Source: an uncultured Pelagibacteraceae bacterium
GTDB lineage: Bacteria; Pseudomonadota; Alphaproteobacteria; Pelagibacterales; Pelagibacteraceae
Length of the DNA stretch: 64,000 nucleotides
Reading direction: 5' to 3'
Assembly: GCA_902525355.1 (NCBI GenBank)
Contig: CABZGO010000005.1
Location: 1-64,000 of the forward strand
The notes beneath the pieces are model-generated. The model worked only from the letters and a program-made list of their open reading frames with translations. It was not told where the DNA came from and searched no databases. Positions 49,563-51,004 of this stretch are shown one piece after another. Position numbers and translations under genes: made by a program. Position 1 is the first letter of the stretch; every line of letters begins with the position of its first letter.

Positions 49563-49796
49563 TTAAATTTTAGATACGGATGAAGTAACTAGTATTTCTT
49601 TATATGTATCTTGTTTTTTTGCTATTTCAATTTTGTCAGTTTCTAAACTCTCAAAACGTGCTCTAAATTTCTTTTGCTCTTTAACTAATTGCAGTTTGAT
49701 CACTAAATATAAAATACTGAAGCAAGAAAGAGTAAATACAAAAGAAGACCATACATAGAGACCATAGCCATTCATGTATAAAACTTCATTAATCAT
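49563..49796 (-). CDS. ccmD: CcmD-like small membrane protein
   Basis: Small subunit that releases holo-CcmE from the CcmABC complex. The core [20 protein letters not shown] matches the typical CcmD start, and a single helix is followed by a charged segment ([16 protein letters not shown]). The ATG used here overlaps the ccmC stop as ATGA, suggesting coupling; the Met at residue 8 (49775) would give the canonical N terminus. The tail is longer than usual for CcmD, giving 70-77 residues. Confidence 0.85.
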
Positions 49797-50500
49797 AATC
49801 TATCCAATCCTTTATTCTTAATTTTTATCAGTTCTGTATTATATTTCATCAAAAATATCAAAAGCGAAAAAAGTGCAAATGCCGCAGTCATTATACCTAA
49901 AGGCAACAACATTGATACATGGATAGAAGTTTCTGTAAAAATATTCACAGAAGAAGGCTGGTGTAATGTTGACCACCATTCAACAGAAAATTTGATTATT
50001 GGAACATTTATTAAACCAATTATTGCTATATAAGAACTAATCTTCATAGCTTTTTCTTCTTTATCAGTTATTCTCCAGCTTAAAAGAAACATCAGATAAA
50101 AAAATGCGAGTAGCAGCATGGATGTTATCCTAGCATCCCATGCCCACCATGTGCCCCATGTCGGTTTACCCCATATAGACCCTGTAACCAAAGCAATGAT
50201 GTTAAAAACAAAACCAGATGGTGCTAAACTTTTTGTTATTAATGAAAGATTTTTATTCTTAAATACTAAAATCCCAAATGATAAAATTGCAATTAAGGAA
50301 AAGATCCCAAGAGAGATCCAAGCGGCTGGAACATGCACATACATAATTCTAACAGAATCACTTTGTTTGTAGTCTTCAGGAGAGAGAATTAATGCCTCAA
50401 CAAGACCGATAGTAATTATTACTAAAAAAATAATAAAAACATATTTTTGTGTCTTATTTATAATTTTTAGTAAATTATTTGGTTTTAAATAGTGAAGCAT
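49793..50500 (-). CDS. ccmC: Heme handling protein CcmC
   Basis: Membrane protein that presents heme to CcmE. The tryptophan-rich motif is WGTWWAWDARITSML, flanked by conserved histidines in YVHVPAAWISLG and EWWSTLHQPSS. 235 residues with six hydrophobic helices. It is the first ccm gene here; ccmA and ccmB are not adjacent and must be encoded elsewhere. Upstream lies a 183-base gap containing a strong hairpin. Confidence 0.95.
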   Translation of the reverse strand: MLHYLKPNNLLKIINKTQKYVFIIFLVIITIGLVEALILSPEDYKQSDSVRIMYVHVPAAWISLGIFSLIAILSFGILVFKNKNLSLITKSLAPSGFVFNIIALVTGSIWGKPTWGTWWAWDARITSMLLLAFFYLMFLLSWRITDKEEKAMKISSYIAIIGLINVPIIKFSVEWWSTLHQPSSVNIFTETSIHVSMLLPLGIMTAAFALFSLLIFLMKYNTELIKIKNKGLDRL

Positions 50501-50552
50501 TTCCTGTTATCTATAACACAAATTTTATTTATAAAAATTTTTCTGATGAGTT

Positions 50553-50615
50553 ATTCTGACCAAGAACGCAGAGGGAGATAAAATAATTGGGGATTATAGC
50601 ATCCTTGATCAGAAT
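50553..50615 (-). ncRNA. Candidate structured RNA between hspQ and ccmC
   Basis: Read on the minus strand, ATTCTGATCAAGGATGC pairs along its whole length with GCGTTCTTGGTCAGAAT, a 17-bp helix including three G-U wobbles. The same positions on the plus strand would be A-C mismatches, so the RNA must come from the minus strand. The 29-base loop holds a small ATAAT/ATTAT hairpin and the pyrimidine run TCTCCCTCT, which is complementary to a Shine-Dalgarno sequence. It could be a leader of ccmC or a small RNA. No family is recognised; the fold does not show the two-ended architecture of a whole 6S RNA. Confidence 0.6.
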
Positions 50616-50683
50616 ATAATCTACTTTAGACATAATCTATGACGAAGGTTTGCATGAAATGTGTTTAAATAATGTAAATAACC

Positions 50684-51004
50684 CTAGTTAGATGGTTTGA
50701 AGTAACCAGAGCCTTTTTTTCCTGAGAATATCTCGTTGATCAGGGGGTGTTTAATTGGTTCATCAGAGTCATCAACTAATAAGTTTTGTTCAGATACGTA
50801 TGCTTCGTAAGTGATTTCGTCATTTTCAGCTAACAAATGATAGAATGGTTGGTCTTTTCTGGGTCTAACGTTTTTTGGTATAGATTGATACCATTCCTCA
50901 GAGTTATTAAACTCAAAATCAACATCATAAATCACACCTCTGAAATCGAAGTGCTTATGTTTTACAACATCTCCTATTGAAAATTTACCTTTTTGTATGG
51001 TCAC
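50684..51004 (-). CDS. hspQ: Heat shock protein HspQ / hemimethylated-DNA-binding YccV domain
   Basis: Small beta-barrel protein that in enterobacteria is an adaptor for Lon and binds hemimethylated DNA. 106 residues: KFSIGDVVKHKHFDFRGVIY, then VRPRKDQPFYHLLAEND, then TYEAYVSEQNL and HPLINEIF. These are the defining HspQ segments. It is divergent from the septation protein gene. A 183-base gap separates it from the downstream ccmC. Confidence 0.93.
   Translation of the reverse strand: MTIQKGKFSIGDVVKHKHFDFRGVIYDVDFEFNNSEEWYQSIPKNVRPRKDQPFYHLLAENDEITYEAYVSEQNLLVDDSDEPIKHPLINEIFSGKKGSGYFKPSN

Follow-up and report, generated by a model that had tools for sequence, protein, structure and literature searches.

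A conserved hairpin with a C-rich loop between hspQ and ccmC, a candidate Hfq-independent regulatory RNA of SAR11 bacteria

An anti-Shine-Dalgarno loop is found in alphaproteobacterial RNAs such as the AbcR / alpha-r small RNAs of Rhizobiales, families which are generally associated with Hfq. Other described systems dispense with this protein. LhrC of Listeria is induced via the two-component system LisRK and pairs with its target mRNAs through UCCC loop motifs, Hfq being dispensable (PMC4132741). The structured RNA sX13 of Xanthomonas carries apical C-rich loops that act without Hfq on G-rich motifs near start codons (PMC3771888). ChvR of Caulobacter is an Hfq-independent intergenic small RNA, controlled by the OmpR-family regulator ChvI, which pairs near a start codon (PMC6237742). 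Finally, Meyer et al. (2009) described candidate RNAs of SAR11 bacteria (PMC2704228), which are structured, intergenic and derived from comparative analysis, as is the element presented here.

This element was analyzed in a window of 64,000 nucleotides (the whole stretch of DNA considered) from an uncultured Pelagibacteraceae bacterium. By comparison with the systems above, it has the anatomy of a Hfq-independent C-rich-loop RNA. With LhrC it would share a UCCC-type loop, two-component control (predicted for the SAR11 element) and no need for Hfq; however LhrC exists in several copies with two stem-loops and a terminator, whereas the SAR11 element is a single-copy hairpin of unrelated sequence, with a loop of 17 to 41 nt across its relatives and no intrinsic terminator. 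sX13 is a 115-nt RNA with three stem-loops and has no sequence or synteny in common with it. ChvR is likewise an alphaproteobacterial intergenic RNA under OmpR-family control (again predicted for our element), but it measures 84 nt, forms three stem-loops and has other neighbours. The AbcR / alpha-r families differ in that the SAR11 element has no Rfam match to them and in that Hfq was not found in SAR11 genomes. The locus is organized as follows, the two flanking genes named by a first-pass annotation of the window having been confirmed:

50684-51004, minus strand: hspQ, upstream neighbour (TIGR02097)
50638-50676, minus strand: conserved putative promoter box of response-regulator type, four half-sites with an 11-bp period (C at 50674, 50663, 50652 and 50641)
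50623-50628, minus strand: predicted -10 element TAAAGT
50552-50616, minus strand: hairpin of 18 consecutive base pairs (50616-50599 with 50569-50552) and a 29-nt loop
50571-50581, minus strand: conserved loop segment UUAUCUCCCUC, candidate antisense seed
49793-50500, minus strand: ccmC, downstream neighbour (TIGR01191)

The minus strand from 50616 to 50552 folds at -24.2 kcal/mol, and none of 200 dinucleotide shuffles was equally stable (z = -5.0). The first-pass annotation had described a continuous helix of 17 bp: its continuity stands, and folding lengthens it by one pair. The three G-U pairs claimed were counted in this fold. Nothing unusual was observed on the plus strand at the same site (z = +0.6), which indicates, as had been proposed, that the helix belongs to a minus-strand transcript. 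A scan of both strands for helices with 15 or more uninterrupted pairs, six or more of them G-C, and a loop of 45 nt or less retrieved this helix and no other in the window, and none in six shuffled windows. A covariance model, R1, locates the hairpin at 50552-50615. The C-rich loop, previously noted as resembling an anti-Shine-Dalgarno sequence, indeed contains UUAUCUCCCUC and is conserved across SAR11, with a nearly invariant core, UCUCCCU.

Three queries, namely the intergenic sequence, the motif of the loop and R1, were run against relatives. These searches found the element in 138 of 297 genomes of the family, at one copy per genome; some of the stems are palindromic and give a weak score on the opposite strand as well. 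Homologues occur in all 14 genera of Pelagibacteraceae (SAR11) examined. Loop counts made on elements that had been picked by TCCCT are partly circular; an unbiased version was obtained from loci chosen by an hspQ protein profile alone, without any sequence criterion for the element. This profile gave 80 loci, every one carrying the label Pelagibacteraceae or Pelagibacterales (SAR11). At each of them R1 matches the element, scoring 56 to 81 bits on the coding strand and no more than 33 bits on the opposite one, and the best hairpin within 160 nt 3' of hspQ has 14 to 19 pairs and CTCCC in its loop (80/80, against a chance of about 1% per loop). Most genera are recognized by R1; g8, g10, g12 and g15, in which the loop is shorter, were recognized by position after hspQ. 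The single R1 match in g8 (L093) is a false positive, the element being present in this genus by position. Three of these short-loop genera (g8, g12 and g15) also escape a second model, R2, and owe their recognition to the same positional rule. In the sister family f2 the element was not seen 3' of hspQ, where another ORF directly follows, and no f2 genome is among the matches listed for R2 in an order-wide search. The only viral match, in a GC-rich phage, was attributed to chance. In one locus (L075, about 1550-1690) a tandem repeat lies beside the element and comprises its loop, its 3' arm and some 25 nt beyond, the result of a duplication or of an assembly error.

The stem is maintained by compensatory changes. 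Within the genus of the window, to which one sequence from another genus was added, 96.4% of the cells of the alignment are paired and two-sided changes affect 13 of 18 pairs; across genera, 95.0% of the cells are paired and 13 of 16 pairs covary. In neither set did any of 500 shuffles reach the covariation score. Between genera the arms are rewritten, from UCUGAUCAAGA/UCUUGAUCAGA to AGCCUAAUUGAG/CUCAAUUAGGCU, with pairing kept; in this second set, moving the partner one base along makes pairing fall below 50%. Compensatory changes beyond those of shuffles, on one strand, are what is expected of a conserved structured RNA. The covarying stems that the first-pass annotation had suggested looking for in other SAR11 genomes thus exist, and a lack of conservation of the stem, which it had named as the adverse outcome, is clearly not what these genera and loci display.

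The region upstream of the hairpin is also conserved, and contains a putative promoter that the first-pass annotation had overlooked. In an alignment of the upstream sequences of 101 distinct elements, C is found in 100 of the 101 at each of columns 9, 20, 31 and 42; columns 20, 31 and 42 were included in the pattern that anchored the alignment, column 9 and the -10 element being independent of it. Self-similarity of the upstream sequences, measured by autocorrelation, peaks at lags of 11 and 22. The motif TANNNT occurs at one fixed offset in 67 of the 101 elements (15 at the next best offset), and the base of the stem lies at a median distance of 7-8 nt past it. This spacing predicts a transcription start at the very base of the stem (about 50616-50615). 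The complete box, allowing up to three mismatches, occurs once in the genome of the window. Tandem half-sites of 11 bp, four in number, ending just upstream of a -10 element constitute the activation layout of the OmpR/PhoB family, and in this respect the box resembles a promoter controlled by a response regulator of that family. CenR is known to bind direct repeats (PMC9275681). OmpR-family regulators are present in every genome tested, and that of the window encodes PhoB, a ChvI-like regulator (a name that denotes resemblance only) and an OmpR/CenR-like one. PhoB was considered and is not favoured, since the promoters of pstS in the same genomes are unlike the box: 16 pstS promoters received negative scores with the box model, which reached top rank in only two of them. 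One genome (G114) has the element and no match to the PstS family. The pstS upstream regions (L371-L386) carry their own tandem 11-bp boxes, of type TTGTAACAAAACTTTAAC, which probably represent the SAR11 Pho box.

The genes surrounding the element were then compared. hspQ is nearly always directly upstream on the same strand. In 11 of the 14 genera ccmC lies downstream; in the three others (g6, g9 and g11) its place is taken by a gene for a PagL-like lipid A deacylase. In one locus (L081) a methyltransferase gene is inserted between hspQ and the element, and the box and the hairpin stay joined. This cohesion, together with the variable downstream gene, argues that box and hairpin form a unit of their own. 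No complement of the loop was found at the start of the downstream gene (-1.98 kcal/mol against -2.2 for shuffled sequences, with a G-rich match in 1 of 98 cases), a result that speaks against a simple switch in cis. These two observations, a PagL-like gene downstream in three genera and a loop unmatched at the gene start, do not support a regulatory leader specific to ccm, sensing heme or redox state, as had first been envisaged. The other suggestion, a separate small RNA, is favoured by them, and by the promoter-like box and the L081 insertion.

What survives of the leader idea is a more general form, which we regard as possible yet clearly the less probable account. The element would be the 5' leader of whichever gene follows, ccmC or, in three genera, pagL, and would read through into it from the response-regulator promoter; its 5'-terminal hairpin would stabilize the mRNA, or bind a protein or another RNA via the conserved loop. 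The box and predicted start immediately upstream suit such a leader, as does the downstream gene, which is on the same strand in all 98 of the 101 elements where one could be called, at a median distance of 50 nt. Against it, the loop stays the same in front of genes with unrelated functions and finds no partner at their start region, and the sequence linking the stem to the gene shows little conservation. The 3' end of the hairpin speaks for the leader: a run of at least five T within 15 nt after the stem is present in only 20 of the 101 elements, and no intrinsic terminator was recognized between hairpin and gene, the copy of the window included, so that a discrete small RNA would need Rho or processing. 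Across the 101 elements, the 40 nt that follow the stem contain strikingly little G (a few per cent) and more C. A bias of C over G of this kind is seen at Rho-dependent termination sites.

The element is new and ancient, and is missing from Rfam and from the 2009 survey of SAR11 RNAs. The 6S and alphaproteobacterial small RNA families, to which the first-pass annotation had pointed, gave nothing: with Rfam 15, at gathering and at relaxed thresholds, no match was found at the element, in the window or in seven relatives. The survey (PMC2704228) has no listed motif or table entry between hspQ and ccmC. The only Rfam match in the window is the ffh RNA motif, a known alphaproteobacterial element (RF01793, 26269-26321, minus strand, 58.7 bits).

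Reading the element as a separate regulatory RNA implies that it is independent of Hfq, because a search that detected Hfq in Caulobacter and E. coli gave no match to it in 16 of 16 genomes of the two families (SAR11 and sister), most of them near complete. The lack of Hfq and a UCCC-type motif in an exposed loop, both seen here, are two of the features by which Hfq-independent C-rich-loop small RNAs may be recognized. Candidate targets were sought at gene starts. GAGGGAGAT before ATG shows an approximately twofold excess over the reversed pattern, with no target conserved across genera, and GGGAGA before ATG shows little excess over the control in 11 genomes. The best candidate was the start site of sfuC, encoding the iron-binding protein SfuC, where ACGAGGGAGATAAATG is complementary to the loop segment UUAUCUCCCUC over 11 nt without a mismatch. 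This match is confined to three genomes of genus g7 (L041, L042 and L043) and absent from the sfuC starts of other genera, and sfuC was not retained; the search thus yielded no conserved target. This result would also suit a protein-binding or decoy RNA, in which a translational regulator or cold-shock protein, and not an mRNA, contacts the single-stranded C/U-rich loop, and the near-invariant loop core is wider than a minimal seed. We consider this improbable: no known binding motif was recognized, and RNAs that act without Hfq commonly use UCCC loops for antisense pairing (PMC4132741, PMC3771888). Slightly less probable still is a small RNA derived from the 3'-UTR of hspQ, or a 3' stabilizer of its mRNA, as could be suggested by the position of the element behind that gene and by four near-complete genomes lacking both an R1 and an hspQ match, since a conserved box with its -10 lies between hspQ and the hairpin, the methyltransferase gene of L081 parts the two, and missing contigs explain the joint absence equally well.

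The reading that we prefer, with a probability of about 55%, is a separately initiated, Hfq-independent regulatory RNA with a C-rich loop, encoded by a small RNA gene found throughout the SAR11 family. In this scheme an OmpR/PhoB-family response regulator would bind the four tandem half-sites and recruit RNA polymerase to the -10 just downstream. The transcript would start at the base of the hairpin, so that the RNA begins with a stem of 16-18 bp presenting the large loop and its UCUCCCU core. The loop may then pair with G-rich, GGGAGA-like ribosome-binding sites of other mRNAs and lower their translation without Hfq. What the analysis itself shows is the structure and its conservation, the layout of the promoter, a lack of dependence on any single downstream gene and the lack of a match to Hfq; transcription, control by a response regulator, action in trans and the sign of the regulation are inferred.

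SAR11 bacteria are very abundant, with tiny genomes, few known regulators and almost no known RNA regulators, and in a study of this group changes in the proteome reportedly did not follow those of the transcriptome. With its single copy, its retention in every genus examined, a promoter of its own that looks regulated and a C-rich loop that is fixed, this RNA offers a concrete candidate for control at the post-transcriptional level without Hfq. A wider proposal, which we advance tentatively and hold to be less probable than the small RNA gene itself, is that it has been a core SAR11 RNA since the origin of Pelagibacteraceae, driven by a two-component system and repressing many mRNAs by pairing of its 5'-terminal loop with ribosome-binding sites, again without Hfq. 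If this were true, the element would be a general translational regulator in a bacterial group that ranks among the most abundant on Earth.
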